DNA from: a virus
Length of the DNA: 63,685 nucleotides
IMG/VR virus record: IMGVR_UViG_3300047360_000121
Location: 1 to 63,685 of that record
Direction: 5' to 3' (one strand)
The position numbers and the translations under genes are program-made. Under the pieces are notes generated by a model. The model did no database searches. It was not told where the DNA came from and saw only the letters and a list, made by a program, of their open reading frames with translations. Shown in pieces: positions 13,712-54,395 of the stretch. Numbering within the stretch: position 1 is the stretch's first letter; every line of letters begins with the position of its first letter.

Positions 13712-14068
13712 ATGCCGAAAGACTCCCAAGTGGCCCTGCCGAACTCCCAGAGCGCGGGTGACGAACTCAGGCAGTTCGTTGAGCGCGTCGAGCATATCGA
13801 GGCGGAACAGGCCGACCTCGCTGAACAGAAAAAGGAGGTCATGCAAGAACTGAAGGGCCGTGGATACGACACGAAGATGGTCCGAAAGCTGATCGCCGAG
13901 CGCAAGCGCGACCCGGATGATGTGGCCGAGGAGATCGCCGTGATGGAGATGTATCGGGAAGCCCTCGGCATGTCCACGTCGCTCCGCAACACCGCCAACA
14001 CGGGCTATGACCCCGATGTTGACGAGGACGAGGACGACGATTCCGACGCTGAAGGCGGTATGGTCTAA
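13712..14068 (+). CDS. GapR-like (DUF2312) nucleoid protein with acidic tail
   Basis: This 118-residue protein matches the DUF2312/GapR family: ELRQFVERVEHIEAEQADL, a coiled-coil helix, then KGRGYDTKMVRKLIAERKRDP and MYREALGM. In alphaproteobacteria GapR is a small DNA-binding protein that embraces overtwisted DNA near forks and transcription ends. The host protein stops soon after the LGM region, whereas this one adds about 28 residues of Asp/Glu ending AEGGMV. The start follows GAAGGACTGGAC. It sits among other acidic-tailed genes and shares one base with the next start. The family call is strong; whether it acts on phage or host DNA is open. Confidence 0.88.
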   Translation: MPKDSQVALPNSQSAGDELRQFVERVEHIEAEQADLAEQKKEVMQELKGRGYDTKMVRKLIAERKRDPDDVAEEIAVMEMYREALGMSTSLRNTANTGYDPDVDEDEDDDSDAEGGMV

Positions 14069-14322
14069 TGGCCCGCAACGCTCTCCTGACCGAGATTGCC
14101 GAGCGGCTTGAGCGCACCGGCGGCGCGGGGTTCTCCTGCTTCTGGATCGAAGGCGAGTGGCGCGTGACGCCGCGCACCGCGACCGGATGGGGGAACTTCG
14201 CCACGGGGGCCACGATCAGCGAAGCGATCGAGAACGCTTTCGCGCCGCGCGCGGTGGACTATAACGCCCCGGTCGTGATCCACGATGATGACCCGGATGA
14301 CGACGGACTGGACCTCGTATGA
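14068..14322 (+). CDS. Small unknown protein with acidic tail (..GLDLV)
   Basis: This 84-residue protein overlaps the GapR stop by one base and the next gene by ATGA. The N-terminal 65 residues look like a small alpha/beta domain (LLTEIAERLERTGG, SCFWIEGEWRVTPRT, ISEAIENAF). The end is a DDDPDDD run followed by GLDLV, nearly the same as the tail of the 13065 product. Function unknown. Confidence 0.75.
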   Translation: MARNALLTEIAERLERTGGAGFSCFWIEGEWRVTPRTATGWGNFATGATISEAIENAFAPRAVDYNAPVVIHDDDPDDDGLDLV

Positions 14323-14939
14323 CCGACACCCACTTCACCGAAGGCCCGCTCGCCGGGCTGCGCCGGAACCACTATGGCGCGATCCTCGTGGACCCGCCGT
14401 GGTCGTTCCTGACGCGCTCGGACAAGGGCAAGGACCGCTCTCCCGAACAGCACTACGACTGCATGACGCTGGACGAGATCAAGGCGCTGCCGGTGAAGGA
14501 ACTGGCCGCGAAGAACTGCGCCCTGTTCATGTGGGTGATCGACACGCACCTGCCCATGGCCCTCGACGTGATCGAGGCGTGGGGCTTCACCTACAAGACG
14601 CGGGCCTTCTGCTGGGCCAAGCAGAACCGCAAGAGCGAAGGCTTCTTCGTCGGCATGGGCTACTGGACTCGGGCCAACCCCGAGGACTGCCTGTTCGCCA
14701 CGGTCGGCGCACCGAAGCGACAGGCGCGCGACGTGCGCCGCCTGATCGTCAGCCCGGTTCGCGAGCACTCCCGCAAGCCGGACGAGACGCTTGAGCGCGT
14801 CGAGCGGCTGGTGCCCGGCCCGTATTGCGAACTGTTCAGCCGGACGCCGCGCCCCGGCTGGGATCAGATGGGCAACCAGAAAGACCGCTTCCTCGCGCGC
14901 GGCGAAGAACTGGACGACGACGCGCTCGCGCTCGTCTGA
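14319..14939 (+). CDS. MT-A70 family DNA N6-adenine methyltransferase
   Basis: This 206-residue protein has the MT-A70 signature DPPW (VDPPWSF, about residue 27), followed by HYDCMTLDEIKALPV, ALFMWVIDTHL and the C-terminal region EHSRKPDETLERVERLV, as in phage MT-A70 enzymes that methylate adenine in DNA. It is the third methyltransferase in 5 kb. It carries a short acidic end, ELDDD followed by ALALV, of the shared tail type. It starts in an ATGA overlap with the preceding gene. Confidence 0.9.
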   Translation: MTDTHFTEGPLAGLRRNHYGAILVDPPWSFLTRSDKGKDRSPEQHYDCMTLDEIKALPVKELAAKNCALFMWVIDTHLPMALDVIEAWGFTYKTRAFCWAKQNRKSEGFFVGMGYWTRANPEDCLFATVGAPKRQARDVRRLIVSPVREHSRKPDETLERVERLVPGPYCELFSRTPRPGWDQMGNQKDRFLARGEELDDDALALV

Positions 14940-14956: not shown

Positions 14957-15115
14957 ATGCCGAAACGACAATTCATGCTGAAGAACTACCCCCGATGCCC
15001 GAAGTGTGGGGCGACCTCGGGCGACGCATGGGGCCAATGCGAGGGTTCCTGCCCGCTCCCGTTTTCCCCGAACTTCAAGCAGGCCGAAGCCGACAAATAC
15101 GAGGGCCTGAAATGA
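14957..15115 (+). CDS. Small zinc-ribbon protein
   Basis: This 52-residue protein starts at ATG 14957 behind GGAAGGACTCCTGAC, a leader repeated before several genes. CPKCG at residues 14-18 and two later Cys (CEGSC) suggest a small zinc ribbon. The stop overlaps the next start as ATGA. Function unknown; it could be a nucleic-acid or protein adaptor. Confidence 0.65.
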   Translation: MPKRQFMLKNYPRCPKCGATSGDAWGQCEGSCPLPFSPNFKQAEADKYEGLK

Positions 15116-15336
15116 CCTGCGCAACCTGTAAATATGCTGCGCCGGATTCCACGGCCCACACGGGTCTGGTCTGCACGATCCAGTTGCCGCGCAACCTGAT
15201 CCACTCCTTCGCGCACCTGTTGGCGAACTTCGAGCCGTGGGATGACCTGCCGCCTGCTCCCGTCCGCCCGCAAGACGGCTGTGACTTGCACGAGGAGGAA
15301 GACTTCGACCCGATCGACACCGGAGACGTGGTATGA
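15112..15336 (+). CDS. Small Cys-rich protein with acidic tail (..TGDVV)
   Basis: This 74-residue protein begins with CATC (residues 3-6) and has two more Cys (CTIQ and GCDLH), so a zinc site is likely. The last 16 residues (EEEDFDPIDTGDVV) are of the shared acidic-aliphatic tail type. It is coupled by ATGA overlaps on both sides. No family is recognised. Confidence 0.68.
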   Translation: MTCATCKYAAPDSTAHTGLVCTIQLPRNLIHSFAHLLANFEPWDDLPPAPVRPQDGCDLHEEEDFDPIDTGDVV

Positions 15337-15530
15337 ACCGGCGACCCAAACTGCCGCACCTCGCGCGCCTCTATGACGAGGGTGCCGAGGCTGCGGCGAC
15401 TGGGGCCGAGTGCCCGTACAAAGGCGACGGCCACGGCAACCTGACACGCCGTCATATCTGGCGGCAGGGCAACGAAGACACTATCCGAGAAGCGGACGAT
15501 CTCGAATCCGACATCGCCGCTCTCATCTGA
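15333..15530 (+). CDS. RMF/CrpP-like small protein
   Basis: This 65-residue protein has a DEGAEAAATGAECPYKGDG stretch, then RRHIWRQGNED. This resembles the ribosome modulation factor / CrpP superfamily pattern (helix with EG..A..G, then CPY, then W..G). Members bind ribosomes or have other small-protein roles. It ends SDIAALI after acidic residues, a weaker version of the shared tail. It starts in an ATGA overlap. The family call is moderate. Confidence 0.6.
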   Translation: MNRRPKLPHLARLYDEGAEAAATGAECPYKGDGHGNLTRRHIWRQGNEDTIREADDLESDIAALI

Positions 15531-35548: not shown

Positions 35549-36127
35549 TCAGACCATGCCGTCCGTGTCGTCACCTTCGGCGTCGTCGGCCTTGGCGGCT
35601 TCACGCTTCTCGGCGATGCGCTTCTTCAGCCCGGCTTCCTTCAGGTTGCCGTTGGGGGCCTCGCCGAACACCTCCTCGTATTCGGCGCGCAGGCGGTCGA
35701 GGTCGGACAGCGCGGGCTGTTCGACATCGGCGGCGTTGCCTTCTTTGCGCTCGGCCTCGTCCACCTTCGCATCGGGCGAGGTCTGACCTTCGCCGACGTT
35801 GGCCTCGTCCACCTTGGACTCGACGGTTTCGGCGGGCTTGGCCGGTTCCGCCCCGGCGACCGGGCGCACGGTGTTCGTTTCGGGCGTGGTGACATCGTAC
35901 AGCCGCGAGCCGCGCAGGATTTCATCGTCGGCCTCGACCGGGCGCGCGGCCCGCATTTCGATGAACTCGGCTTCCTGCTCCTCGGACTGCGCCTTGAACT
36001 GCGCACCGTTGGGGATGGTCTTCGTCTTGGGCCGCACCGGGGCAAGACCCTTGGCCGGATCACCGGCCTTGCCGGGGGTCACGGTCATGTGGATTTCGGT
36101 GAGGGCGATCAGTTGCTTCAGGGCCAT
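35549..36127 (-). CDS. FI-like head protein with acidic C-terminal tail
   Basis: This 192-residue protein follows the capsid gene. The first third is basic and proline rich, the middle is acidic and low complexity (VESKVDEANVGEG), and residues about 138-175 look like a small helical SAP/HeH-type fold (LDRLRAEYEEVFGEAPNGNL). It ends DDTDGMV, the shared acidic-aliphatic tail. In lambda, FI helps DNA packaging; by position this is a counterpart. Confidence 0.65.
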   Translation of the reverse strand: MALKQLIALTEIHMTVTPGKAGDPAKGLAPVRPKTKTIPNGAQFKAQSEEQEAEFIEMRAARPVEADDEILRGSRLYDVTTPETNTVRPVAGAEPAKPAETVESKVDEANVGEGQTSPDAKVDEAERKEGNAADVEQPALSDLDRLRAEYEEVFGEAPNGNLKEAGLKKRIAEKREAAKADDAEGDDTDGMV

Positions 36128-40990: not shown

Positions 40991-43125
40991 GCCAGATTAC
41001 TCGCCAGTTTGGACAGACTATGCCCCGGTTTCGGTTCAGCGTCGAACGCTTTTTCCTGCACCGACGGATCGAAGACCAAATCGTTCTGGTCCCACTCCTC
41101 GGCCCAAGACGGCGGGTTGGACGGGTCCATGTATTCCAGACCGATCGCAGGCGTCAACGTAGCGGCGACACAATAGACCAGCAAGTCCCAGCTTTCGTTT
41201 CGGTAGTTCCGGGGGTTCAGCCAGCCCTTCACGGGGTCCTTCACCTCGACGGTCAGTTCGATGTAGAAGTTATCGTTCAGCCACTTCGGGAAGCAGAACC
41301 GACCGCCGGGATCGAGACGGTCGAGTTTCTTGTCCACCATGTCCTTCACGGTGTTCGGGTTGATGAACAGCACGGGGATTTCGCCCCGCGCCCCGGCGTT
41401 CCGGTCCTTCCGCTGCGAGTCCGGGTAGCTGATCGCGACGCGCGGCGCTTCCTTCTGCGAGGCACCCTTCAGCAACATGAAGCGCCCGGCCATGCCTGGG
41501 TCCCATTCATAGGTTCCCTCGTCCCGGTTGGTCTGGGATTCTTCGTCCTCGGGGCCATAGCGCAGCCACCGCACGAAGTTGTATGCGTTCGCGGTCACGC
41601 CCTCGCGGCCACCGGAGTCGCAAATCACCTGCTTCACGCCCATCATGCGGCCCGAGCCGTCCGACAGCGGGTAAGCCTTCGCCAGCACCTCGTCGGCCAG
41701 CAGCTTCCAGTCCTCGGGGTACGCGCCGGGGTTCACCCACAGGCGCTCGCCGTCGTCGTCCTTCCGCTTGGACTTCTTGATCTCGAAGCGGTCGATCACG
41801 TAGATGTCGCCGTTCAGCGCGACGCCCTGTACCTGAACCACGAAGCGGTTCTTCTGCACGTCAATCGTCGCGATCAGGAAGCGCACCGCCGCCGGGACTT
41901 CGCGGAAGCCGAGATCGCGGGCGCGGGCCTTGATCGCCTCGGGCACCCGGTCGCTGGCGAGGCTCTTGGGCGTGTAGGCGTCACCCTGATCGGTGTTCAC
42001 GGTCGTCTTCAGCGTCTCCTCAGAGCCGGTGTTCTCGTAGTCCTTAATCGCCGACAGGTAATTGAACACGAGCGTCTTCCAGTCGGAGAACGCGGCGGCG
42101 ACGCCCTTCAACCAGAACGAGGCGATCGAGGAGCGCATCGGCGTCCCGGTGATCGAGCCGTCCTTCGCCCATGTCATGCCGTCCTGAATCCAGCGCCCGT
42201 TCCGGTTCATCTCGTGCTTGCCGGGCATCCCGTCCATCGGGTCGTGGTGGTAGTCGATCCCGCAATGCGGGCAGCGCAGCGTCGCCATCTCGGCAGCCGC
42301 CATCATGTCGTCGGTTTTGGGCCAGACTAGCAGGCTGAAGTCCGGCTCAAACTTGCCGTGGCACTCAACACAATCCCAGTACCAGCGCCGCCGGTCGCCC
42401 CGGTTGTAGAGCGCGAGGACGCCACGGGTGGGCGGGGCTTCATGCTTCGTGGCGCGGACCCATTTCGGGTTCTCGACGGCGTAGCCGGGCGAGGACTCAG
42501 CCGCGCACATGCCGTGACTGCGGAAGGAGGTCGCGCGCTTTCGGGCGAGGTCGAAGGGGTTGCCCTCGCCGTCCACGTCTTCCGGCATCCGGTCGTAGTC
42601 GGTCAGCAGCAGGCGGGGGATCGGCTTGCCGGACAGTTCGTTGATCGTCGGCCACGACAGGGTGAGCATCATCCCCGACTTGTAGTGCTTGTCGAAGGTG
42701 TTGTCGGCACTCTTGGACGGGGCCAGCATCGCGCCGACTTCTGGGCTGTGCCGGTGCATCCGGTCCACCCGGCGCATCGAGAAGTCGCGCGCCGTGGTCT
42801 GCGAGGTCTGCACGAGCATCATGTCGGCGGGGTCGCACATGACGGAATAAGTCTGCCAATTCAAGAACATCTCAGTTTTCCCGGCCTGAGCCGGGCCACT
42901 GAAAACCATGCCCGTGAAGTCCCGAGATTGCAGGGTGTTCATCGGCTCGATCAGGTATGGCGTGATGTCGTTCTTCAGCGGCCCGACGTAAGCGCCGGGG
43001 TTGTTCAGCTTGCGGTATCGCTCGGCAGCCTCGGCCACGGTCAGGCGCTCAGGCGGGCGCGCGCTCTTGGCCGCGTCCACGACCAGCGACTCGATCGTCT
43101 CATTGAACAGGTGCCGGGCGTTCAT
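40987..43125 (-). CDS. terL: Terminase large subunit (GpA type)
   Basis: This 712-residue protein is a lambda GpA-like packaging ATPase and nuclease. Walker A is GPAQAGKTE (about residue 80) and a Walker B-like strand is LLLTDYDRMPEDVDG. A zinc-binding pair, CVECHGKFE and CPHCGIDYHHD, follows, and the nuclease half contains FLIATIDVQKNRFVVQVQG. Length is normal for the family. GpA terminases usually cut at cos sites, which implies unit-length cohesive ends, although no cos site was identified here. Confidence 0.94.
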   Translation of the reverse strand: MNARHLFNETIESLVVDAAKSARPPERLTVAEAAERYRKLNNPGAYVGPLKNDITPYLIEPMNTLQSRDFTGMVFSGPAQAGKTEMFLNWQTYSVMCDPADMMLVQTSQTTARDFSMRRVDRMHRHSPEVGAMLAPSKSADNTFDKHYKSGMMLTLSWPTINELSGKPIPRLLLTDYDRMPEDVDGEGNPFDLARKRATSFRSHGMCAAESSPGYAVENPKWVRATKHEAPPTRGVLALYNRGDRRRWYWDCVECHGKFEPDFSLLVWPKTDDMMAAAEMATLRCPHCGIDYHHDPMDGMPGKHEMNRNGRWIQDGMTWAKDGSITGTPMRSSIASFWLKGVAAAFSDWKTLVFNYLSAIKDYENTGSEETLKTTVNTDQGDAYTPKSLASDRVPEAIKARARDLGFREVPAAVRFLIATIDVQKNRFVVQVQGVALNGDIYVIDRFEIKKSKRKDDDGERLWVNPGAYPEDWKLLADEVLAKAYPLSDGSGRMMGVKQVICDSGGREGVTANAYNFVRWLRYGPEDEESQTNRDEGTYEWDPGMAGRFMLLKGASQKEAPRVAISYPDSQRKDRNAGARGEIPVLFINPNTVKDMVDKKLDRLDPGGRFCFPKWLNDNFYIELTVEVKDPVKGWLNPRNYRNESWDLLVYCVAATLTPAIGLEYMDPSNPPSWAEEWDQNDLVFDPSVQEKAFDAEPKPGHSLSKLASNLA

Positions 43126-43820
43126 ACCATGTCCTCGATCTCGGCGTCTTCGGCGTCTTCGTCCGCGTCGTCGGCCATGATGGTTTCGATGCGCTCGGAG
43201 TCGCCGAACCGTTGCTCAAGTTCGGCCAACTGCGGCCCGGTCATGTTCTCGTTCATCTGCTTCACGAGGGCGTCGAAAATCGCACCCTGAAGCGCATCCG
43301 ACATTTCGATGATGATCCGGCGCTGATCCTCGGAAAGCTGGACCTGCCGCTCGACGGTATCGGCCCAAAGCTGGACGGTGAACTTGATCGTCTGGAAGGT
43401 GCTGCCGAGCACTTCCCTGATCTGGTCCGTGCGCCACAGGTCGCCCGCGTTCTCCTCCCACTTCTGCCGCTTCAGCATGGCGTCCCACACCGACTGCTGA
43501 AGCGCCGGGGGCAGGTCGCCCTTCTTCAGCGCCTTCATGTATTCCTTCGTGCTGAAGGCCGGGGCCACGAGGAAACCCGCCGCCGTGCGCAGGTCGTAGA
43601 GGTGGACCTTCATCTTCGTGCCGCGCGTCTTCGTCGCCTTGATCGGGCAGCCGCGCAGCCGGTAGCGCACGGTCGGCTCGGGCATCTTGAACGCCGTGGA
43701 CAGCCACGCCGTCGTCACGCCCTTGGCGGTCAGATCGCCGTCTGCGGCGAGCCGGTGATCCACGCCCTGCTGGCGGGACTGCCGGTGCAGGTCCAGCCGC
43801 TTTTCGATGCTCTTAGCCAT
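43122..43820 (-). CDS. terS: Terminase small subunit (DUF1441/Nu1-like) with acidic tail
   Basis: This 232-residue protein lies just before the large subunit with an ATGA overlap. The N-terminal 60 residues contain a helix-turn-helix-like DNA-recognition part (GVTTAWLSTAFKMPEPTVRYRL), and the middle is helical for oligomerisation (RQVQLSEDQRRIIIEMSDAL). It would select the packaging site. It ends AEDAEIEDMV after an acidic run, the shared tail of this phage. Confidence 0.82.
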   Translation of the reverse strand: MAKSIEKRLDLHRQSRQQGVDHRLAADGDLTAKGVTTAWLSTAFKMPEPTVRYRLRGCPIKATKTRGTKMKVHLYDLRTAAGFLVAPAFSTKEYMKALKKGDLPPALQQSVWDAMLKRQKWEENAGDLWRTDQIREVLGSTFQTIKFTVQLWADTVERQVQLSEDQRRIIIEMSDALQGAIFDALVKQMNENMTGPQLAELEQRFGDSERIETIMADDADEDAEDAEIEDMV

Positions 43821-45315
43821 GCGCGGCCCTCTCCAACTGCACCATGACAGCTTCCTTCAATCGGTCTTCGGTCGCCTTCCGGTTCCGCAGGACCGGCAGG
43901 ATCAGTTCGTCGGCGGTGCCCTCCGCGATGATTCGGTGCAGGAACACCCGGTCGCGCGTCTGCCCCGATCGGTGCAGCCGCTTGAGGAACTGCATGTAGA
44001 GTTCATGACTCCACGTCAGCCCGTACCAAACCGAGATGTTGGACCCGGCCTGAAAGTTCAGCCCGTGGCCCGCACTGGCGGGGTGCAGCAACAGCATCCG
44101 AATCCGCCCGGCGTTCCAGTCGCGCATATCGCTCGCGCTATCACCGAAAACCCGGACGTAGGGAAACCGCTTCTTGATCGCATCTTTATCGAACTTGAAC
44201 GAGTAGGCAACCAGCATTGGCGCACCCGCACTCTCCTGAACGATGGATTCCAGCGCGTCCAGCTTCTCGGTGTGGACCGGCACCGCGTCGCCGTCCTCGG
44301 TATAGAGCGAGCCGTTGGCGAACTGAAGCAGCTTGCCGGTGAGCACACCGTTGTTCACGGCCTCGATCGTCTCAGGTTCGTCCCGGTTGTTCACGAGGTC
44401 GATCGCCATCTCGCGCTCAAACTCGCGGTATCGCTTCATCACGGCCCGGTCGAGCCGGACCTTATGGTCGATCTCGACCAGCGGCGGCAGCTTCAGGTAG
44501 TCCTGTTCGCGCAGCGCGAAGAACCGATCCTTGATCCGGCTCATGATCTCATCCTCGGAATGGGCCAGAGGTTCGATCGTATGGGCGTACTGGTTCTCCA
44601 CGAACCACCGCTGCTTGTAGGCCGTGATCGACGTGCCGAGGCGTTCCCCCTTGTCCACGGCGTACATCGGCCCCCAGAGGTCGATCAGGCCGTTCGGGGC
44701 CGGGGTGCCGGACAGGCCGACGAACCGTACCGTCTTCGTGCGCACCCGGTCGATCACACCGAGTTCGGTCAGGCGCGGCGCGGGCATGGTGCCGTCTGCG
44801 CGGGGCTTCGGCTTCGAGCGTTTCCGGCCCGCCTTCAGGCGGCTCACCTCGTCGTAGATGATCGTGTCGAAGGGCCAGCGCCGCAGGCCGATGTATTTGA
44901 TGAGCCAGCCGAGGTTTTCCCGGTTGACGATCGTGATCTTGCACGGCCCGAAGCGCAGCGCGGCCTTCCGCTCGGCCTCAGTGCCGGTGACGATCCGGTA
45001 GCGCAGATGCCGCGAGAAAGACCACTTCGCGATCTCCTCGGGCCATGTGTTCTCGGTCACGCGCAGCGGCGCGATGATGAGGACGTGCTTGGCCTCGCCG
45101 GTAGCGATCAGGTCGGACACGGCCTTCAGCACCGCCCCGGTCTTCCCGAGGCCCATCTCAGCGCCCAGCAGGACGCCCGGCAGGCTCTTGATCGCGTCCA
45201 CCATCCAGTTCTGGTAGGGGCGCAGGTTCTCAGCGTCGAGGATCGTCTTCGGCGGGCCGTGGATCAGTTCGATCGCCTCGATGTCGGTCAGGTGCTTCGG
45301 GAGAACGGTCTTCAC
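43813..45315 (-). CDS. SNF2-type DNA helicase/translocase
   Basis: This 500-residue superfamily 2 protein has Walker A GAEMGLGKTGA (about residue 51), a DEXX-type box IIYDEVSRLK, motif III LSGTPAPNG, and motif VI QFLKRLHRSGQTRDRV. Phage proteins of this group remodel or unwind DNA during replication and recombination. It follows the VRR-NUC gene with overlap, and the two may act as a helicase-nuclease pair. Confidence 0.92.
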   Translation of the reverse strand: MKTVLPKHLTDIEAIELIHGPPKTILDAENLRPYQNWMVDAIKSLPGVLLGAEMGLGKTGAVLKAVSDLIATGEAKHVLIIAPLRVTENTWPEEIAKWSFSRHLRYRIVTGTEAERKAALRFGPCKITIVNRENLGWLIKYIGLRRWPFDTIIYDEVSRLKAGRKRSKPKPRADGTMPAPRLTELGVIDRVRTKTVRFVGLSGTPAPNGLIDLWGPMYAVDKGERLGTSITAYKQRWFVENQYAHTIEPLAHSEDEIMSRIKDRFFALREQDYLKLPPLVEIDHKVRLDRAVMKRYREFEREMAIDLVNNRDEPETIEAVNNGVLTGKLLQFANGSLYTEDGDAVPVHTEKLDALESIVQESAGAPMLVAYSFKFDKDAIKKRFPYVRVFGDSASDMRDWNAGRIRMLLLHPASAGHGLNFQAGSNISVWYGLTWSHELYMQFLKRLHRSGQTRDRVFLHRIIAEGTADELILPVLRNRKATEDRLKEAVMVQLERAAHG

Positions 45316-45635
45316 ACAATGTCCTTCCAGTCGTCGTCCAGCGGTGGCCCGCCGTTGTGCCCCGGCAGCAGCCAGAGGATGCGCAGGGCGTCCGTGGCAG
45401 TATCGCAGACATGCACCTCAATGCCAGCCTTCCGCATCCTCTCATGCTCAACGGTCTGGCCCCGGCGAGGCGACTCACCGGGGCGCTTGAACTCGATGAA
45501 GACCGTTCCGCGATCAGCGCGGGCGAACAGCCGGTCGGGTGCGTGGCGGCGACCCGGCCATTGGACCTTCCGCACGTAGTAGCCCGCCATCTCGGCGCGG
45601 CGAACGACCGGCATCTCGACGGCAGACTCCCGCAT
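45312..45635 (-). CDS. VRR-NUC domain nuclease
   Basis: This 107-residue protein is a small VRR-NUC (PDDEXK) nuclease: GYYVRKVQWPGRRHAPDRLFA supplies the Asp, and GTVFIEFKRPGESP the E.K pair. Phage versions cut branched DNA or Holliday junctions. It ends LDDDWKDIV, a short form of the shared tail. It overlaps the helicase gene by four bases. Confidence 0.87.
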   Translation of the reverse strand: MRESAVEMPVVRRAEMAGYYVRKVQWPGRRHAPDRLFARADRGTVFIEFKRPGESPRRGQTVEHERMRKAGIEVHVCDTATDALRILWLLPGHNGGPPLDDDWKDIV

Positions 45636-45922
45636 TACTTCGGGCCGCCGCTGCCTCGGATCGTGAGCGTTTTAGTGCTCGCGGCTTCGGGGTCGGCGTT
45701 TTCGAGGTTCACTTCGGTTTCCCGCGCTTTCGGTTCAGCGCCGCCGGTCACGAACCGCCCGTCGAAGAACTCGGAACAGGGCCGGACCCAGACCGTGTTG
45801 CCGATCAGCGTCTTGTAGATCACCACGGGGGTCATGTCGCTCTCGCGGATGCCGAAATGAATGATGCGGTAGTGCCTGCCGGTCTTCTGGTGGGTGTAGA
45901 TCAGGTCGGTGAAGTGGGCCAT
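45635..45922 (-). CDS. DUF1653-like small protein
   Basis: This 95-residue protein begins FTDLIYTHQKTGRHYRIIHF and has VVIYKTLIGNTVWVRPCSEFFDGRF, the pattern of DUF1653 (Tyr-His-Lys then VYKTL and VRP..F). The function of the family is unknown. The C-terminal 30 residues are low complexity. It lies between the polymerase and VRR-NUC genes. Confidence 0.7.
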   Translation of the reverse strand: MAHFTDLIYTHQKTGRHYRIIHFGIRESDMTPVVIYKTLIGNTVWVRPCSEFFDGRFVTGGAEPKARETEVNLENADPEAASTKTLTIRGSGGPK

Positions 45923-45925
45923 GTG

Positions 45926-48001
45926 TCAGTCCTTGATGAAGTGGGTGGTGATGTGCCCGGCGGAACCGAGCGGCAGGCCGGGTGCCCAGACAGGCACCTC
46001 CTCCATGCATTGAATGAGGACCGGCAGCTTGGCCGCAGCGTCCTCCTCGCGAATGAGCGGGGTGATCTGATCGTGGACGTGGAGTCGAATGTCCAGACCT
46101 TCCTTCTTCGCCAGCTTCATGCCGTGAACCAGCAGGTCGCGGCTGATCGCTTGGTCGGCGTTCTCCACGATCTTGCCCGGCGTGGTGTGGGTCCGCACCC
46201 ATTGCTTCTTGTCGTTCAGGCCCTCGTAGGTGAGCGACTGGCGCATCTCGCCCCACGGCGTCTCGCGCTCCTCCAATTTCGGGCGCAGGTAGTGCAGTGG
46301 GCGTCCCGAGGGCAGGATCATACGCATGAAGGGGCCTTTGATGTCGAACCGGACGTAGCCCTCCTCCTGCGGCTTGCCGGTCCTGACGCACCGCTTGGCG
46401 GCTTTCTCAAGGGCGTACCAGTAGGACTTCACCTCCTTGAACTCGCGACGGAAGGTGTCGATCGAGTGCTGCGCGTCCTCCTGCGTGAACTGCTTGACGC
46501 CCATGCCCCACGCATAGCCCAGCAGGCCGGTCGCCTCGATCTCGCCCGTCTGGTGGTTCACCCGCTGCTGCCCCGCGCCCATGCCGTAGCCCGCGCCGAG
46601 CGTTCCGGGTTTGCCGATCGACCGCTTCGCGCCGTTCCCGAGCACCTTGTATTCGTGCCAGAGGTCTTCGTAGGGCTGATCGTAGAGGTAGGCCGCGAAG
46701 GCGAGATAGGGGTCGCGCTTCAGCTTGAACACGTCGAGGATTTTGTCGCAGTTGGCGAGCCAGCCGAGCACCCTGTTCTCGATCGCGTTCAGGTCGGCGT
46801 CCAGAAAGGTGAAGCCTTCGGGGGCCTGCGCCGCCGGGCGCAACGCCGAGGCGAGCACGTCGAAGGGGTTGCCGTGAACCATGCGCAGGGCTTCGAGATC
46901 GAGGTGTTCGATCGCCCGCGCGATTTGCGGCTGCATCGGCTCAAACCGCTTCTCGGGCCGGGGAAGGTTCTGCGGCTGGAAGATGCGCCCAGCGTATCGC
47001 CCTGTGCGGGCCGCGCCGTTCATCTGAAGCACGTTCCGCAGCAGGCCGTCGTCGTCGGTCGCCCGGTCGAGGGCGTAGTATTTCTTGATCGAGGTGCGCG
47101 AGGTTTCGGCGCGCAGTTCCAGCACCCGGTAGAGGTCGCGCTCCTCCTCGGGATGCGCCGCGCCGTCCATGATGCGGTTCCCGATGTCCGCGAGCGCCTG
47201 CGTGATGTGGCCCTTCTTCATGTCCTCGTAGGGGTAGCCCTGTTCGCGCAGCCACGGGAGAAGCTGCTTCACCGAGTTCGGGTTCGCGAGGCCGGTGATG
47301 TCGGCCATCTCGTCCAGCGCCTCGGCGAGCGCCTGTTCGTAGATGCGCAGCGCGTTCGTCACCATGGCCCGGTTGATCGGAAGCCCGGCCCGGTTGATCT
47401 CCTGATCGAGAAACCAGAGGTCCCATTCGTCGGCGCTCATGTCGAACTTGCGCAGGCGGCGGTAGATCGCGCGCTCGGATTCCACGTCCGATCGGTTATA
47501 GGCGAGGTAGTCGCACCAGTCGTCGGGGTCGTCATACCAGAACACCCGCGTCGCGGGGTTGTTCTTCGACGGCTTTCGGGGGAACGAGAACTTCCGCATC
47601 AGGGCCTTGCCCCGGCGGTCCTTCTGCTGATCCATCGGCAGGCCGATGACCTCACCGGCCTTGCCCAGCGACCCCGGCAGCGAGCAATGCAGCGCCAGAA
47701 CCATCGTGTCGCGCCACTGGCGAATGTCCACCGGCAGCCCGAGGGTGTGCTCGATGATCTGCATCTCAAAGGGCGCGTTCCATGCCCACTTGATGACCTC
47801 GGGATCGACCAGCGCCTCGGACAGTTCAGCCGTCAGCGGCTCACCCTCGGCGTGGGCAAGCTGCTGGATCGGCGCGTCGTTGAAGGCGAAGGCGGTCATC
47901 AACGCCTCGGTCGAGGTGTGCCGCGCATAGACGGACGACCCGGTGTCCTTCAGGTTCATCTCGGAAAACGTCTCGAAGTCGATATGCAGGCGGTCGGGCA
48001 T
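45926..48001 (-). CDS. DNA polymerase I family (PolA) with 3'-5' exonuclease
   Basis: This 691-residue family A polymerase replicates the phage genome. The exonuclease part has IDFETFSE, WNAPFEMQI and YNRSDVESE (residues 7-190). Polymerase motif A is DADLNAIENRV. Motif B is AKRSIGKPGTLGAGYG, in which the position equivalent to E. coli 762 is Leu. Motif C is VHDQ rather than the usual VHDE. No 5'-3' exonuclease domain is present, as is normal for phages. It is one base from the 48001 gene. Confidence 0.94.
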   Translation of the reverse strand: MPDRLHIDFETFSEMNLKDTGSSVYARHTSTEALMTAFAFNDAPIQQLAHAEGEPLTAELSEALVDPEVIKWAWNAPFEMQIIEHTLGLPVDIRQWRDTMVLALHCSLPGSLGKAGEVIGLPMDQQKDRRGKALMRKFSFPRKPSKNNPATRVFWYDDPDDWCDYLAYNRSDVESERAIYRRLRKFDMSADEWDLWFLDQEINRAGLPINRAMVTNALRIYEQALAEALDEMADITGLANPNSVKQLLPWLREQGYPYEDMKKGHITQALADIGNRIMDGAAHPEEERDLYRVLELRAETSRTSIKKYYALDRATDDDGLLRNVLQMNGAARTGRYAGRIFQPQNLPRPEKRFEPMQPQIARAIEHLDLEALRMVHGNPFDVLASALRPAAQAPEGFTFLDADLNAIENRVLGWLANCDKILDVFKLKRDPYLAFAAYLYDQPYEDLWHEYKVLGNGAKRSIGKPGTLGAGYGMGAGQQRVNHQTGEIEATGLLGYAWGMGVKQFTQEDAQHSIDTFRREFKEVKSYWYALEKAAKRCVRTGKPQEEGYVRFDIKGPFMRMILPSGRPLHYLRPKLEERETPWGEMRQSLTYEGLNDKKQWVRTHTTPGKIVENADQAISRDLLVHGMKLAKKEGLDIRLHVHDQITPLIREEDAAAKLPVLIQCMEEVPVWAPGLPLGSAGHITTHFIKD

Positions 48002-48303
48002 CAGGCGTCTCTCAGCAGGGCGGCGATCGCCTCATTGTATTCACGCTCGGCGGCGCGCTCGGCCTCGTCACGGGCAACGCGCAGGGCGAACGCTGCGGCG
48101 CAGAAACGCTCGGCTTCCTCTCGGGTGTCGAACGCGGCCATGACGCGGGCGATCATCACGGCCTTCACGCGGCTGCGGCCCCCGCCAGTCAGCACTTGGA
48201 CGCGGCGCGGCGTGACACCCACGACCTCGATCGGGTGCGGGTTCGCATACTGCGGAAGGAGGGGGTGGCGCAGGACGGCCCACTGGCCGGTCTTGGGGAT
48301 CAT
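48001..48303 (-). CDS. Unknown small protein
   Basis: This 100-residue protein starts at ATG 48303 behind AGAGGACTCCTGAC, the repeated leader. The N-terminal half has strands (IEVVGVTPRRVQVLTGG, KAVMIARVMAAF), and the second half is one long helix rich in Ala, Glu and Arg. No family name. It lies between the ssDNA-binding protein and the polymerase. Confidence 0.7.
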   Translation of the reverse strand: MIPKTGQWAVLRHPLLPQYANPHPIEVVGVTPRRVQVLTGGGRSRVKAVMIARVMAAFDTREEAERFCAAAFALRVARDEAERAAEREYNEAIAALLRDA

Positions 48304-48326
48304 GTCAGGAGTCCTCTCGTGGTGGC

Positions 48327-48350
48327 GGGGGCTGCCCGTGAACAGCCCCC
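48327..48350 (-). terminator. Intercistronic hairpin
   Basis: GGGGGCTG and CAGCCCCC form an 8-bp stem around an 8-base loop, between the ssDNA-binding protein gene and the 48303 start. There is no T run. It probably helps set relative expression of the abundant upstream product. Confidence 0.5.
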
Positions 48351-48359
48351 TATGATGTA

Positions 48360-49043
48360 TCAGATCATGTCGTCGTCATCATCCTCCTCGTCATCGCTGA
48401 AGTCGCCGCCGATCGACCCCTCGGTCCCGGCCATATCGTCATCGAACTCCTCGTCAACGTCGATCGAGGTGCCGCCGAACGGCTCACCGTCGCGGAAGAA
48501 CTGGACCGCCTTGACCTGCGCGTTCAGGCGCTTGCCGTGCTTGTTGTCCTGCGCCCAGATCACGAGCACCGCGTTCACGTAGCAACCCGAGTAGGGGGCG
48601 TTCTTGCCGCCGCCCTCGGCCTCGATCCACTTGCCGTTGCCGTCCTTGCGGTTAGTAATGACGGACGGGCGCTCGTTCAGTTGGGCGTTGGCCGAAGCGT
48701 AGTGGTTCCCGGCGTAACCGTCCCAATTCTCCTGATCGCCGTCGCGGAAGAACTTCCGGTCGTCCTTGATCTTGGGCCACTTGTCGGGATCGTCGCCCCA
48801 CTTTTTCGCCTTGGCCTCGTCGCCCGCCGCCTTGATCGCCTTCAGGATGGGCATCTTCTTGCCCTTGAAGACGCCCTGCATCTCCTTCGCGTCTTCCTTG
48901 GGAATCAGGAAGTTCGCGCCCCACGTCTCGCGGATCGTGCCGTCGTCGTTCTCGGAACGATTCGGCTCGTACAGCTTCTCGAAGGAGAGGCGCACGTTGA
49001 GCAGGGTGACTTTGCCGATGATGTCTGCTTTGGCCTTCGCCAT
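48360..49043 (-). CDS. Single-stranded DNA-binding protein (DUF2815 type)
   Basis: This 227-residue protein matches DUF2815, the phage ssDNA-binding proteins encoded next to PolA-type polymerases: KVTLLNVRLSFEKLYEP at the start, ANFLIPKEDAKEM, and YSGCYVNAVLVIWAQDN followed by GKRLNAQVKAVQFFRDGE. It coats ssDNA at forks. The last 25 residues are strongly acidic and end DDDDDMI. This parallels the acidic tip of bacterial SSB that recruits partners and is the model for the tails on other proteins here. Confidence 0.88.
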   Translation of the reverse strand: MAKAKADIIGKVTLLNVRLSFEKLYEPNRSENDDGTIRETWGANFLIPKEDAKEMQGVFKGKKMPILKAIKAAGDEAKAKKWGDDPDKWPKIKDDRKFFRDGDQENWDGYAGNHYASANAQLNERPSVITNRKDGNGKWIEAEGGGKNAPYSGCYVNAVLVIWAQDNKHGKRLNAQVKAVQFFRDGEPFGGTSIDVDEEFDDDMAGTEGSIGGDFSDDEEDDDDDMI

Positions 49044-49052
49044 GGTAGTCTC

Positions 49053-50333
49053 CTAGATTACGTCGTCTTCGTCAGGTGCGTCCGGCAGGTCCGACAGGGC
49101 ATCCCGTATCGGCTCACCCGGATCAGTTTCAGGGACGAGGATCGGCCTCGCTTCCCCCATCTGCACATACCGGGCGTAGACTTCCCGGTACTGCTTCTTC
49201 CCGACCAGCTTCTCAAGCTGCGGCGGGGAGATCAGAGCGCGCGGCAGGTATGCCTCGTCACCCAGATTCTTCTTCAGGATCACCTCGGCGCGCACGGGGT
49301 CGGTGAAGGCGCGCTTGCCGCGCCGTCCGGCGACCATCTTCATGCCGGGCACCTCGCGGCCCATCTCGGCGTCCTTGTAGGCTTCCTCCTGAAGCTGCTT
49401 CAGGTACTTCTCGATGGTGCCCTTGGACAAGAGCACCTGCGACCGCTGTTCGGGCGTCATGGCCCGGCGCAGCGTGGGTTCCTCGCCGACCATGAACTCG
49501 GTTTCGAGGTCATCGAACTCCAAGCCCATGAGGTCGGTCAACCAGCGGGCGCGGGCCTCGCAGGTATTGTAGCGCGCCGCCGGGCAGAAGTTGCATTGCT
49601 TCTCGCCGGGCACGAAGGGCGCATCGGGGTCTTCGGTCAGCGCGGCGTCCTCGCGAATGCGACGGCCCTCGCGCAACAGGTGCCCCATGGTCGTCACCCA
49701 CGTTCCGCCACCGCCGGGCGCGCGGGGTTGCTCGATCATCACCTGAACCTTGATGTCCTCGGCCCAAGAGGCGTTCCGGTCGGGGTCGATCCCCCGGCGA
49801 CGCGCTTCCTCGGCGAACATATCGCGGGCGATGTCGGACCACGTTCCGAGCGCATAGAGGATCGCTTGATCGTTCTCCTCGGGATGGACCGGGACGCCCT
49901 GCCCGTATTTCCAGTCGAAGACGGTGATCGTCCAGTTCGCGGGGTCGAGCAGCGCGGCGTCGGTCGTGCCGAACTCGCCTTCGCCGACCCATTCGGCAAG
50001 GCTCACGCGCTTCTCGACAAGAAGGGTGGTGGTGTCCGTCTCCATGGCCCACAGCAGGTCCAGACCGGCCAGCATGTTGTCGGCCATCTCGTGATCGAAC
50101 TCAAGCCAGCCGAAGCCCTCGACCTCCATCCCGTCACCGACGAAGCCGTGCGGCTCAAGCCCCATTTCGAGGCAGTCGGCGGCGAAGTCGTGGAAGACGG
50201 TGCCATAGGCAGCTTCGATGCCAGCGGTATTCGGGTGGCCTGCCGACGCCCGAACCGAAGCCGGGCATTTCCGCCAGCGGTGGGCCGTGGAAGGCCCACG
50301 CTTCGAGTGCGCAATCTCGTCGGTGTCGGACAT
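49053..50333 (-). CDS. RecB/Cas4-like PDDEXK nuclease (DUF2800)
   Basis: This 426-residue protein fits DUF2800, a PDDEXK exonuclease group in phage replication modules: a start with STAHRWRKCPASVRAS, then GTVFHDFAADCLE, the active-site block GTTDAALL...VFDWKYGQG (Asp and D.K), and NDQAILYALG. A cysteine cluster (CNFCPAARYNTC) may hold an iron-sulphur cluster or zinc. It likely processes DNA ends for recombination. It ends APDEDDVI, the shared tail. ATG 50333 is chosen at the protein-like boundary; the ribosome-binding site is weak (GGAAC). Confidence 0.85.
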   Translation of the reverse strand: MSDTDEIAHSKRGPSTAHRWRKCPASVRASAGHPNTAGIEAAYGTVFHDFAADCLEMGLEPHGFVGDGMEVEGFGWLEFDHEMADNMLAGLDLLWAMETDTTTLLVEKRVSLAEWVGEGEFGTTDAALLDPANWTITVFDWKYGQGVPVHPEENDQAILYALGTWSDIARDMFAEEARRRGIDPDRNASWAEDIKVQVMIEQPRAPGGGGTWVTTMGHLLREGRRIREDAALTEDPDAPFVPGEKQCNFCPAARYNTCEARARWLTDLMGLEFDDLETEFMVGEEPTLRRAMTPEQRSQVLLSKGTIEKYLKQLQEEAYKDAEMGREVPGMKMVAGRRGKRAFTDPVRAEVILKKNLGDEAYLPRALISPPQLEKLVGKKQYREVYARYVQMGEARPILVPETDPGEPIRDALSDLPDAPDEDDVI

Positions 50334-50364
50334 GAGGTTCAGTTCCGTGTCAGGGAGAAGGGAA

Positions 50365-50397
50365 CCCCCGGCGGAAGGGAGGAGAATCCGCCGGGGG
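50365..50397 (-). terminator. 11-bp intercistronic hairpin
   Basis: CCCCCGGCGGA (50365-50375) pairs perfectly with TCCGCCGGGGG (50387-50397) in the gap between the 50404 gene and the DUF2800 nuclease. It is a strong RNA hairpin without a long T run; partial terminator or processing site. Confidence 0.6.
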
Positions 50398-50403
50398 CTG
50401 GGC

Positions 50404-50595
50404 TTAACGAGCCGTATAGACCGAGCAGCCCCGCCGACGCTCGATCTTCGGGTCGTCCACCTTGTCGGCGAAACCCATGTTCCGCAGTTTGGCCCCAACG
50501 ACGTGCGGAAGCAAGACCTCCGCGCCGCCAGCAGCGCGAAGGCTGTTCAGCGCGGTCTTTTGGGTGTGGGTCAGTTGGTCTTCGAGATTACCCAT
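50404..50595 (-). CDS. Small possible DNA-binding protein
   Basis: This 63-residue protein is basic and helical (LTHTQKTALNSLRAAGG), then AKLRNMGFADKVDDPKIERRRG. It could be a small winged-helix or HTH fragment. No family is recognised. It lies between the 50664 coiled-coil gene and the nuclease in the same transcript. Confidence 0.65.
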   Translation of the reverse strand: MGNLEDQLTHTQKTALNSLRAAGGAEVLLPHVVGAKLRNMGFADKVDDPKIERRRGCSVYTAR

Positions 50596-50663
50596 TGTTC
50601 ACTCTTTCGTTATGGGTTCAGTTGACCTCGGGGAAGGCTCCCCGAGGCTAGTTCAGAGATAGT

Positions 50664-51197
50664 TCAGACGACATCACCGTCATCGTCGCCATCGTCATCC
50701 GAGTCGGCCATGAACTCGGGGGTCCGGCCCTCCTCGAAGTCCTCGACGTAGCCGAGGGCTTCCGCCAGCTTGTCGCCGGGGATCGCGGTGAAGCGGGCGA
50801 CATCGTAGTGCTCGATGATCTTGCCGATGTTCGCCTTGCGCTCGGCGCGCTCGGCCTTGTCGCCGGTCTTCAGGTAGGTGGTGACGCGCTCGGCAGCCTC
50901 GGCCACGGAGATTTCGTCGCCGTCGCCTTCGCTCTCCTCGGCAGCGGCCTTCTCGGCAGCAGCCTTGTCGGCGGCGGCTTTCTCCTTCGCGGCCTTGGCC
51001 TTAGCAGCCTTCTCGGCCTTGGCGGCTTTCTCGGCGTCGGCGTCCGAGGTGTCGGCGGCGGCAGCCTTGGTCGAGGTGGTCTTCGCGGACGCCGCGCCAG
51101 CGGCCATCTTGTCGATCGCGGCGGTGTGTGCCTCGGTGGCCTCGGCATTGCGCAGGAGGGCGGCGGTCAGGTCAGCGATCATCTTGTCCATGGACAT
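50664..51197 (-). CDS. Ala/Lys-rich helical protein with acidic tail, first gene of the minus block
   Basis: This 177-residue protein has an N-terminal short domain (MIADLTAALLRNAEATEAH), a 60-residue Ala/Lys/Glu low-complexity helix, and then a small globular part (AERVTTYLKTGDKAERAERKANIGKIIEHYDV). The low-complexity part resembles linkers of histone H1-like proteins. It ends DDDGDDDGDVV, a full shared tail. ATG 51197 follows GAAAGGACC. As first gene behind the divergent promoter region it should be made early. Confidence 0.75.
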   Translation of the reverse strand: MSMDKMIADLTAALLRNAEATEAHTAAIDKMAAGAASAKTTSTKAAAADTSDADAEKAAKAEKAAKAKAAKEKAAADKAAAEKAAAEESEGDGDEISVAEAAERVTTYLKTGDKAERAERKANIGKIIEHYDVARFTAIPGDKLAEALGYVEDFEEGRTPEFMADSDDDGDDDGDVV

Positions 51198-51259
51198 GAT
51201 AGGTCCTTTCAGAATCGTTCGTTGCGGTAGGCGTTCTATGTGCCATGACGACGACGGGG

Positions 51260-51288
51260 TTGTCAACGTCTGGTTGGCTACATATAAA
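51260..51288 (+). promoter_or_regulatory. Consensus-like promoter for the 51322 gene
   Basis: TTGTCA (51260-51265), exactly 17 bases, then TATAAA (51283-51288). It is the best sigma-70-like promoter in the window and lies between divergent genes. The spacer contains GGTTGGC, the reverse complement of the GCCAACC found in the spacers of the other three promoters, so one regulator may read all four. Confidence 0.78.
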
Positions 51289-51597: not shown

Positions 51598-51665
51598 ACT
51601 GACTCGCTACGGTGGCAACCGCTGCGGTCATAGCAGCCGCCGCAACCATCCTGACTGGAATCTAC

Positions 51666-54395
51666 ATGAAGACGAGCAGAATCAACGGCGCGAAGATGGT
51701 CCGTTTCTCCCAAGGAGACGGATCGAACTTCGGCAAAGTGCGCGACAAGACTGAAACGCTGGACGACTTCTATTCGCTGTTCCACGACGCGATGAACACC
51801 GGAGAGACGTTCCGGCAGTTCAACAAGATGTCGGACCTTCAGCAGCGTGACAAGAAGGCAATGCGCGGATTCTGGTTCCGCGCCCACACGGGGGGCAAGC
51901 GGCGGAACCGATCATCGGCGCTGCCGTCCGACTTCATCACCCTCGATTTCGACTATGTGACGGTCGAGTTCTTCAAGGCCGTATATAAGAACACCCTCGG
52001 CATCCCCTTCGAGTACGCCGTCCACACCTCGCGGCGGCACACACCGGACGACCCGCGCTTCCGGGTCATCATCCCGGTCAGCGTCGGCGTGGATAACGAC
52101 GCCTACCCGGCGGTGAGCCGCATCTTGGCCTCGCAGTTCGACCCGACCATGAAGCTGCCTGACCCGGTGTCCTTCCGGTCGGCGCAGATGATGTTCCTGC
52201 CGACGCGGTGCTCGGACGGCAAATACCATTTCGTCGTCCACGAGGGTGAACTCGCCGATCCGAACGAGGTGCTGGACACCTTCGAGATGACGGTCGGCGA
52301 CTGGCGCGACATCACGCTCCTGCCGAAAGCGCCCGACGAGAAGCTGCGCCAGACCGCCGAGAAGGCCGAAGACCCGACCGAGAAGGTCGGCCCGGTCGGC
52401 AACTTCTGCCGCGCCTACAGCGTCGAGGACGCGATCGACAAGTTCCTGCCCGATGTCTATGCCCCGGTGGACCTGCCGAGCGCCAAGCCGCGCTACTCGT
52501 ACCTCGGGGGCACCACGGTCAACGGGGCCGAGGTGCAGGACGACGGCCTGTTCCTCTATTCCCACCACGGGTCCGACCCGTGCTCGGACATGCTCGTCAA
52601 CGCCTTCGATCTCGTGCGCATCCACAAGTTCGCCGACGAGGACAAGGGCTTCGACGCCGAGGGCAAGAAGGCGAACGAATACCCCTCCTACAAGGCCATG
52701 GTCGAGTTCATCAAGGACGACGACGCCTATCGCAAACAGGTTGTCGCGTCGAACTACGACACGAACGAGATGTTCGATGACCTGTGGGATGAGGATGAGA
52801 TCGAGATCGAGGACGACGAGATCGACTCCATGGTGGGAACGGTGCCTGAACCCGTCGATCGCGACGAGGACGATGAGGACGACGAGGACGACCCGAGCGA
52901 ACTGGTGGGCGACGTGCCGGCGAAAGAGTTGGGCCGGGCGATCCTGAAGCCGCTCAAGCCGAAGAAGCGGCCCAAGCCCGAGGAGGGCTGGGTGGCGACG
53001 CTGGAAGCCGACCGGGCGGGCAAGGTGATCCCCAATATCGCCAACATCACGCGCATTCTGACCTGCGACCCGCGCTTCCGCGACAGCATCGCGTTCAACG
53101 AGTTCCACGCCCGCGCCGTCTGCCGCGTCCCGTTGCGCACGAAGCTGGACTGGATCACGCCGCCGCCGATCGCCGACAAGGAGAACGGCGACCCGTGGCA
53201 GGATTACCACGAGAACAACGTGCGCGTGGTGCTCGAAAGCGAGGCCGGGACCGGCAAGAAGGGCTGGGGCATGAAGGTGTCCGACCGCGACCTCACCGGG
53301 GCCGTGGACCTCGCCGCGCGCATGAACAGCTTCCACCCGGTCAGGGACCGGCTTGAGTCCTTCGATTGGGACAAGAACACCCGGCTCGATCGGCTCTTTA
53401 TCGACTACCTCGGCTGCCCCGACACGCCCTACTACCGTGAGGCCGCGCGCAAGTTCCTGATCGCCGCCGTGGCGCGGGTCTATGAGCCGGGGCACAAGTT
53501 CGACTACGTGCCGACGCTGTGGGGCGCGCAGGGCAAGCGCAAGTCCACCTTCATCAACGTGCTCGCGCTCGGCTGGGCCGGGGAACTGAAGGCCAACTTC
53601 TCGGACGAAAAGGCCATGGTGGAGCAGATGATGGGCTGCCTCATCATGGAACTGCCGGAACTCTCCGCTGTGGGCCGCTCGGCGGTCGAGGACATGAAAG
53701 CCTTCATCTCGGGCACCGAGACGAACGTGCGCCTCGCCTACCGGCGCAACGCTCAGGTCTTCAAGCGCCAGTGCGTCTTCATGGGGTCCACGAACAACAA
53801 GGACTTCCTGCGGGACCAGACCGGCAACCGGCGCTTTTGGCCGATCGAGGTCGTCGTGGACAGCATTGAAACCGACCGGCTCGCGCGAGCCATGCCGCAG
53901 ATTTGGGCCGAGGCCGTGGCCGCATACCGGGCCATGCGCGCCGTCCAGCCGCACGGGATGCTCCCGCTGCACCTTACGTCGTTTGAGGCCCAGCAGGAGG
54001 CCGAGGAACTGCAAGCCGGTAGCCTGCGCGAGAACGACGCCGACATGGTGGCCGCGATCCTCGCCGATAAACTGAACTCGAAGGTCCGCGTCGGCGACGA
54101 CTTTGACGAGGCCCAAGGCGGCGCGACCTACGAGTGGCCGAAGCGTGTCTTCGCCCACAAGATCGCGACCGAATGGCTCGACGGCGTGAAGGTCACGGGG
54201 CAGATGTCGCAGGTCGTCGCGGAAGCCCTCAACAAGCTGGGCTGGGTCAAGTCGGGGGCGCGCGAGCGGGTCACTATCAACGGTGAGCGGACGAAGAACC
54301 CGGTGCGCTCCTACGTTCCGGGGCCGGACCAAATCGCAGTTTGGGAACAACTGGACGAGGCGGAAAAGAGCAACGTGGTCGAGTTCAGGAAGTAG
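51666..54395 (+). CDS. Primase/VapE-type replicative helicase with unusual Walker A
   Basis: This is about 909 residues from ATG 51666; a GTG at 51612 would add 18 hydrophobic residues and is less likely. The N-terminal 200 residues look like a primase-type domain (YAVHTSRRHTPDDPRFRVII). A long acidic stretch follows (about 375-415). The C-terminal half is a virulence-associated E-type SF3-like helicase: Walker A region GAQGKRKST (about residue 619), Walker B CLIMELPELSA, sensor FMGSTN, arginine finger DQTGNRRFW. It probably starts and drives phage replication. The usual Gly before Lys in Walker A is Arg. A strong terminator follows. Confidence 0.88.
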   Translation: MKTSRINGAKMVRFSQGDGSNFGKVRDKTETLDDFYSLFHDAMNTGETFRQFNKMSDLQQRDKKAMRGFWFRAHTGGKRRNRSSALPSDFITLDFDYVTVEFFKAVYKNTLGIPFEYAVHTSRRHTPDDPRFRVIIPVSVGVDNDAYPAVSRILASQFDPTMKLPDPVSFRSAQMMFLPTRCSDGKYHFVVHEGELADPNEVLDTFEMTVGDWRDITLLPKAPDEKLRQTAEKAEDPTEKVGPVGNFCRAYSVEDAIDKFLPDVYAPVDLPSAKPRYSYLGGTTVNGAEVQDDGLFLYSHHGSDPCSDMLVNAFDLVRIHKFADEDKGFDAEGKKANEYPSYKAMVEFIKDDDAYRKQVVASNYDTNEMFDDLWDEDEIEIEDDEIDSMVGTVPEPVDRDEDDEDDEDDPSELVGDVPAKELGRAILKPLKPKKRPKPEEGWVATLEADRAGKVIPNIANITRILTCDPRFRDSIAFNEFHARAVCRVPLRTKLDWITPPPIADKENGDPWQDYHENNVRVVLESEAGTGKKGWGMKVSDRDLTGAVDLAARMNSFHPVRDRLESFDWDKNTRLDRLFIDYLGCPDTPYYREAARKFLIAAVARVYEPGHKFDYVPTLWGAQGKRKSTFINVLALGWAGELKANFSDEKAMVEQMMGCLIMELPELSAVGRSAVEDMKAFISGTETNVRLAYRRNAQVFKRQCVFMGSTNNKDFLRDQTGNRRFWPIEVVVDSIETDRLARAMPQIWAEAVAAYRAMRAVQPHGMLPLHLTSFEAQQEAEELQAGSLRENDADMVAAILADKLNSKVRVGDDFDEAQGGATYEWPKRVFAHKIATEWLDGVKVTGQMSQVVAEALNKLGWVKSGARERVTINGERTKNPVRSYVPGPDQIAVWEQLDEAEKSNVVEFRK

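Follow-up and report, generated by a model that had tools for sequence, protein, structure and literature searches.

Why do so many different proteins of one phage end in the same kind of short acidic tail? The question is raised by a 63,685-base viral record (IMGVR_UViG_3300047360_000121), analysed over its whole length and referred to below as the window, in which gene content and gene order are of the Casjensviridae type and resemble those of S-ESS1, DSS3-P1, Chi, and BcepNazgul. Twelve genes of the window, located on both strands, encode proteins with an acidic stretch at the C-terminus that runs into a final [MLVI][IV]-COOH (Table 1). In related phages the same protein classes are tailed, and the last residues vary between phages and match inside each phage. 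We consider that the tail is probably a C-terminal docking peptide, which has spread to recombination and packaging proteins and is read by a single phage-encoded receptor co-evolving with it.

The carriers were sought in two ways, by a codon-based gene call and by a scan of all six frames for open reading frames (ORFs) of at least 30 codons, and protein identities were assigned with Pfam and PHROGs. The gene call found 11 tailed genes, and the ORF scan added one, at 14995-15336; nothing else among the window ORFs scanned fitted the pattern, so that random ORFs contribute none. The 11 tailed genes compare with 0.38 expected from internal positions of the window proteins, a figure that is descriptive, since the pattern was defined after the data had been seen. 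Six carriers are consecutive genes on the plus strand (13032-15530), five are replication and packaging genes on the minus strand (43122-51266), and one is a head gene (35549-36127). All window tails terminate in I or V, and none has a terminal aromatic residue. The original prediction had listed the tails of the terminase small subunit (TerS), the VRR-NUC nuclease, the single-stranded DNA-binding protein (SSB), the DUF2800 exonuclease, the first-gene protein, and the head protein at 35549. All six are present as stated; the list was incomplete, since the six plus-strand genes are also tailed. The polymerase, helicase, ThyX, and RNR lack the tail, as had been claimed, and so do TerL, the portal, and the capsid genes; thus, the tail marks a subset of the proteins.

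The window was compared with 14 annotated relatives and with loci recovered from viral and bacterial contigs by means of a TerL profile; the ORFs of some relatives begin upstream of the annotated starts, which leaves the C-termini unaffected. In Chi, the ending DDEV is found on SSB, DUF2800, TerS, primase, RdgC, and other proteins, and in AhMtk13b, DDEI or EEI is found on SSB, DUF2800, TerS, helicase, and primase. The endings of MA12 are DDDL, DDEL, or DEEL; Nazgul has GL on SSB, DUF2800, TerS, and RusA; DSS3-P1 has DLLG on SSB, DUF2800, and primase; Phobos ends in LI, and the Bartonella loci in IKI and IEI. The S-ESS1 homologues of the 50664 gene and of the MT-A70 methyltransferase terminate in ..DDGGDLM and ..AEIEDLI, respectively. 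The gene that comes next after that for the major capsid protein likewise takes the ending of its own phage (DDVL in L064, DDDI in L112, DLLG in DSS3-P1). In eight loci (L004, L068, L071, L072, L074, L075, L080, and L100), a terminal Gly was added on several genes together (LLG, VG, or IG). Outside Casjensviridae, the Bordetella podovirus BPP-1 (L178) was observed to have SSB ending in ADLV, exonuclease in EDLV, TerS in AGLV, and a methylase in ADLI.

The agreement of endings was assessed by shuffle tests in which the phage was the unit and endings were permuted among phages within each family, phylogeny not being modelled. Between non-homologous families of one phage, the last two residues were identical in 40 of 107 cases, against 4.8 ± 2.0 expected. 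When the gene at the lambda FI position was added, giving five families and 54 representatives, 75 of 206 were identical (10.0 ± 2.9 expected; maximum of 25 in 2000 shuffles). The FI-position gene, although distant from the replication module, still matched the ending of its phage (31/85 vs 4.0 ± 1.8). With families left unchosen and all strongly acidic C-termini of 15 phages taken, 90 of 378 were identical, compared with 14.1 ± 3.6. The per-phage ending patterns behind the internal-position expectations were chosen post hoc and are descriptive, whereas the shuffle results are independent of them. An explanation by shared ancestry, in which every family retains the ending it inherited and phylogeny alone produces the agreement, appears very improbable. 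The endings of related phages are indeed related, their raw correlations with protein distance being 0.35-0.60; however, the families are non-homologous, and ancestry alone would therefore correlate partitions and not yield identical endings. In addition, the signal persisted when TerS sequences of at least 50% identity were collapsed (45/131 identical vs 5.0 ± 2.1), and endings switch on several genes together, as with the added Gly in DSS3-P1-like phages.

In the window and the 14 relatives, the last residue was hydrophobic in 70 of 106 acidic C-termini vs 160 of 668 other proteins (Fisher P 6e-17), and 22% of internal acidic stretches in the 15 phages end in a hydrophobic residue. These results bear on the possibility that the tails are autoregulatory and have no shared receptor, the acidic arm mimicking DNA and screening the protein's own DNA-binding surface, with the hydrophobic end incidental. 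Most carriers handle DNA, Enc34 SSB without its acidic C-terminus binds double-stranded DNA, and the tails in SSB crystals occupy the groove of a neighbour (PMC5686142). Autoregulation, however, predicts neither the last two residues shared across the genes of one phage nor the enrichment of hydrophobic ends, and we regard it as unlikely for the tail as a whole, while it may still hold for the acidic arm. A common receptor, as the original prediction had supposed, is the simplest cause of the agreement among non-homologous proteins: a shared tip that changes in concert on many proteins is the pattern expected if a docking peptide is recognised by one receptor that discriminates between tips.

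The tails are restricted mainly to DNA-handling proteins. Among 93 carriers, the annotated ones included SSB (14), DUF2800 (9), primase (6), TerS (6), RdgC (5), helicase (3), MT-A70 (2), single Dam, C5, and N4/N6 methylases, and two ParB-like matches. When SSB-bearing loci were surveyed, an acidic tail with a hydrophobic end was found on SSB in 47 of 52 loci (90%), on TerS in 42 of 51 (82%), on the FI-position gene in 30 of 44 (68%), and on DUF2800 in 30 of 45 (67%). Primase was tailed in 9 of 13 loci (69%), although that of the window is not. Helicase was tailed in 10% of loci and VRR-NUC in just 5 of 48 (10%); a few relatives (Phobos, AhMtk13b, MA12, and Nazgul) have a tailed helicase. PolA, the family A DNA polymerase, is the one core replication enzyme that is never tailed (0 of 44 homologues), and the major capsid protein, the S49 protease, and the 40754 head gene were tailed in no locus. 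The 34038 gene served as a useful negative control, having an acidic hydrophobic end in 15 of 39 loci (38%) with last two residues that were never those of its phage. Four phage GapR homologues end with the GapR domain or shortly beyond it and lack the added tail of the window GapR. In view of the mostly untailed state of GapR and VRR-NUC in relatives, the tails are modular, and the carriers probably acquired them independently.

The constraint acts on the protein and not on ribosome-binding sites or DNA repeats, as follows from the codons and the spacing. The PAAGL end of Nazgul is encoded by CCG GCG GCC GGC CTC in one gene and by CCA GCA GCA GGT CTA in another, the tail valine of Chi is encoded by GTA, GTT, or GTG, and the distance from a carrier to the next gene on the same strand ranges from -140 to 9117 bases. 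That the tails are a by-product of gene ends, arising from Shine-Dalgarno sequences, from coupled translation of the following gene, or from a DNA repeat spread by recombination, is scarcely credible: GAG/GAC-rich DNA is indeed purine-rich, and some carriers overlap the following gene by 1-4 bases, but the gaps vary widely and the synonymous codons differ. An origin in ribosome-binding sites or repeats was rejected, as the codons were not conserved and the distance to the following start codon was not fixed. The original prediction had also suggested that the tip was copied onto many proteins; literal copying of the DNA is unlikely given that identical tails use different codons.

Taken as a docking signal, the tail would be a short linear peptide at a free C-terminus, with a flexible acidic arm and a phage-specific hydrophobic tip. 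The archetype carrier is the gp2.5-type SSB of the phage itself, which is tailed in nearly every relative. The suggestion that an SSB tail is the archetype is supported in this form, and not in the form of the E. coli DDDIPF type. The same end would have been gained by the exonuclease, primase, TerS, FI-position head protein, RdgC, and methylases, and in the window also by GapR and VRR-NUC. A single phage-encoded receptor, co-evolving with the tip, would bind the carboxyl-terminal two to three residues, and basic residues would draw in the acidic arm. As a result, replication, recombination, and packaging proteins would be gathered at one site on the phage DNA, where they would exchange or compete at low affinity. 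We infer the receptor, its phage origin, and this gathering function from the pattern of endings.

A receptor encoded by the host was also considered. E. coli SSB ends in DDDIPF, and such an acidic tip with a hydrophobic end recruits partners. Tails mimicking this bacterial SSB C-terminal tip (SSB-Ct) could occupy host PriA, RecO, ExoI, or clamp-loader chi pockets, and both the acidic-plus-hydrophobic form and the position of SSB as main carrier agree with this. However, the Ile-Pro-Phe end occurs in no carrier listed, and only isolated Phe enders were seen (..ALF in AchV4 and ..PTF in pCB2051A). Phages of closely related enterobacterial hosts, moreover, have different and internally consistent endings, namely DDEV in Chi (Salmonella), DDDL in MA12 (Pectobacterium), DDI in pPM_01 (Proteus), and DLV in YMC16 (Klebsiella). 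This difference favours a phage-encoded, co-evolving receptor over a host one, and a host pocket of the PriA or RecO kind, among the partners originally named, is quite improbable.

A partial Mantel test, which covered 37 loci, was used to ask which phage protein might read the tails. PolA is a possible receptor, by analogy with T7, and another phage protein is a more tentative choice; the SNF2 helicase and the groove of the SSB core are each unlikely, and equally so. Several points weigh against a common phage receptor. The receptor remains at the level of candidates. Tail type had no excess co-divergence with PolA (partial r -0.06) or the SSB core (-0.16), and although the SNF2 helicase gave the highest value (0.29), the S49 protease control was near (0.24); a small pocket would escape such a test, which settles nothing on the receptor. 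Eight modules of the Casjensviridae type (L006, L007, L008, L063, L085, L101, L105, and L106) have a different polymerase in place of the family A enzyme (phrog_17); in those scanned it is phrog_1252, a weak PolB match. Coherent endings persist in several of the phages with the phrog_1252 polymerase, a point against PolA being the sole receptor, and that role is not established for PolA. Mixed endings occur within pCB2051A, RHph, Suzuki, and pPM_01. Finally, the shuffles ignore phylogeny, and the collapse at 50% TerS identity kept the signal strong and did not remove shared ancestry. The alignment of PolA to T7 gp5 was weak (probability 60%), too weak to map a basic patch. The replacement polymerase of L085 and L101 itself terminates in ..KLDHLI, resembling the tails of its own phage.

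The near-universal S49 head protease, with its partial co-divergence with the tail, could also suggest that the tail governs the turnover of phage proteins, as a C-terminal degron or protease tag recognised by ClpXP, Tsp, or a protease of the phage. Hydrophobic C-termini can act as degrons, whereas the ssrA-type C-degron is unlike strongly acidic arms. A host protease would, moreover, leave the phage-specific endings unexplained, and the carriers include SSB, which should be needed in quantity; this explanation therefore has a very low probability.

The docking interpretation can be compared with several known systems. In T7, gp2.5 ends in ..DGDF and gp4 in ..DTDF, and the acidic gp4 tails attach to basic patches of gp5, the polymerase (PMC12593628, PMC5997990). 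The window SSB has an OB-fold DUF2815/PF10991 domain and an acidic C-terminal tail (..DFSDDEEDDDDDMI, listed in the original prediction as ..DDDDDMI), as in the gp2.5/Enc34 type, and its family profile matches PDB 5odj (E 5e-67); its structural group is that of T7 gp2.5 (PMC5686142). In both cases, a flexible acidic C-terminus with a hydrophobic last residue is common to SSB and a second replication protein. The T7 tip, however, is Phe on two replication proteins, whereas in these phages it is I, V, L, GL, or LLG depending on the phage, on up to 12 proteins that include the exonuclease, TerS, the head protein, and methylases. A similar sharing is found in P-SSP7 (gp2.5 ..DDDF, gp4 ..STDF), and T7 may be the minimal two-protein case. 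The bacterial SSB-Ct is likewise an acidic C-terminal peptide with a hydrophobic tip, but there one tailed protein meets many partners with pockets, whereas here many tailed proteins suggest one pocket, and the Pro-Phe end is absent. The SSBs of the Enc34 ORF6/DUF2815 family (PDB 5odj, 4klk, 4jg2) belong to the same family and have a disordered acidic tail; in the Enc34 text consulted, this tail is treated as a feature of SSB, and other proteins with a common, phage-specific ending are not mentioned. Sliding clamps (the bacterial beta clamp and PCNA) resemble the proposed system in that one short peptide on many unrelated DNA proteins leads to one hub (PMC11139829). On inspection, the window tails contained no beta-clamp motif of the Q-x-x-(L)-F type, and none of the window genes was recognised as encoding a clamp. 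Clamp motifs also need not be C-terminal and are not acidic-plus-hydrophobic ends. In Acinetobacter phage 4316, a 192-residue protein annotated as the DNA polymerase III beta subunit lies between the polymerase and VRR-NUC genes (L179:21062-21640) and may be a phage clamp-like protein.

The tails thus work like those of T7 and the SSB-Ct, but differ from T7 in tip chemistry, in the number of carriers, and in the inclusion of packaging and methylation proteins; no earlier report of a tail shared across such proteins was found in the open-access literature searched. A broader proposal, which we advance tentatively and hold to be somewhat less probable than not, is that a C-terminal address code extends across the whole genome in Casjensviridae and in some other phages with a gp2.5-type SSB. 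Each phage would have its private tip, two to three residues long and borne on an acidic arm, and one phage receptor, co-evolving with the tip, would read it. Every protein admitted to an assembly for replication, recombination, and packaging would be marked in this way, so that DNA synthesis would be linked to packaging. If this is true, the members of the DNA-handling assembly could be listed from sequence, including the products of genes of unknown function (in the window 13032, 14068, 14995, and 50664). Replication and recombination proteins would also be tied to the terminase and a head protein, which bears on the coupling of packaging to replication. The change of tips on many genes at once between related phages would offer a natural experiment in the co-evolution of a receptor and its peptide.

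Table 1. Tailed genes of the window and the untailed replication genes considered with them.
Gene or product	Position	Strand	C-terminal end	Family match or remark
Protein of no recognised family	13032..13697	+	tail ..DDDDDDDGLDII (ends DDDDGLDII)	
GapR-like DNA-binding protein	13712..14068	+	added tail ..DSDAEGGMV	PF10073 E 3e-26
Protein of no recognised family	14068..14322	+	tail ..DDDPDDDGLDLV (ends DDDGLDLV)	
MT-A70-type DNA methyltransferase	14319..14939	+	tail ..ELDDDALALV	PF05063 E 1e-27, phrog_359
Small Cys-containing protein	14995..15336	+	tail ..EEEDFDPIDTGDVV (ends DPIDTGDVV)	missed by codon model
RMF-like small protein	15333..15530	+	tail ..ESDIAALI	PF04957 E 4e-4, 20.7 bits, below 27.9 cut-off
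Head/packaging gene directly after major capsid gene (lambda FI position)	35549..36127	-	tail ..GDDTDGMV	
Terminase small subunit (TerS)	43122..43820	-	tail ..DAEIEDMV	phrog_141 E 1.6e-34
SNF2-type helicase	43813..45315	-	untailed in window	PF00176; receptor candidate
VRR-NUC-like nuclease	45312..45635	-	tail ..LDDDWKDIV	phrog_93 endonuclease E 2e-22
Family A DNA polymerase (PolA)	45926..48001	-	untailed, ..FIKD	PF00476; receptor candidate
gp2.5/Enc34-type ssDNA-binding protein	48360..49043	-	tail ..FSDDEEDDDDDMI	PF10991 E 9e-30, phrog_112
DUF2800 / PD-(D/E)XK-type exonuclease	49053..50498	-	tail ..DAPDEDDVI	PF10926 E 6e-58, phrog_69 exonuclease
First gene of the module, Ala/Lys-rich middle	50664..51266 (probable ATG start 51197)	-	tail ..DDDGDDDGDVV	
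VapE-type primase/helicase	51612..54395	+	untailed in window, ..EFRK	PF05272

The remaining carriers of the window had no informative match among the families searched. The label "FI-like" for the 35549 gene is unproven and positional, reflecting where the gene lies relative to the major capsid gene that precedes it; a solved structure for the FI-position protein was searched for and none was found. In some FI-position relatives (L036, L025), a HeH/LEM domain precedes the tail. The portal protein (39083-40753) ends in ..GTDSDDDE, which is acidic and has no hydrophobic tip, and it is therefore not a carrier. The product of 15333-15530, which resembles ribosome modulation factor (RMF), is the odd one out among the DNA-handling carriers.

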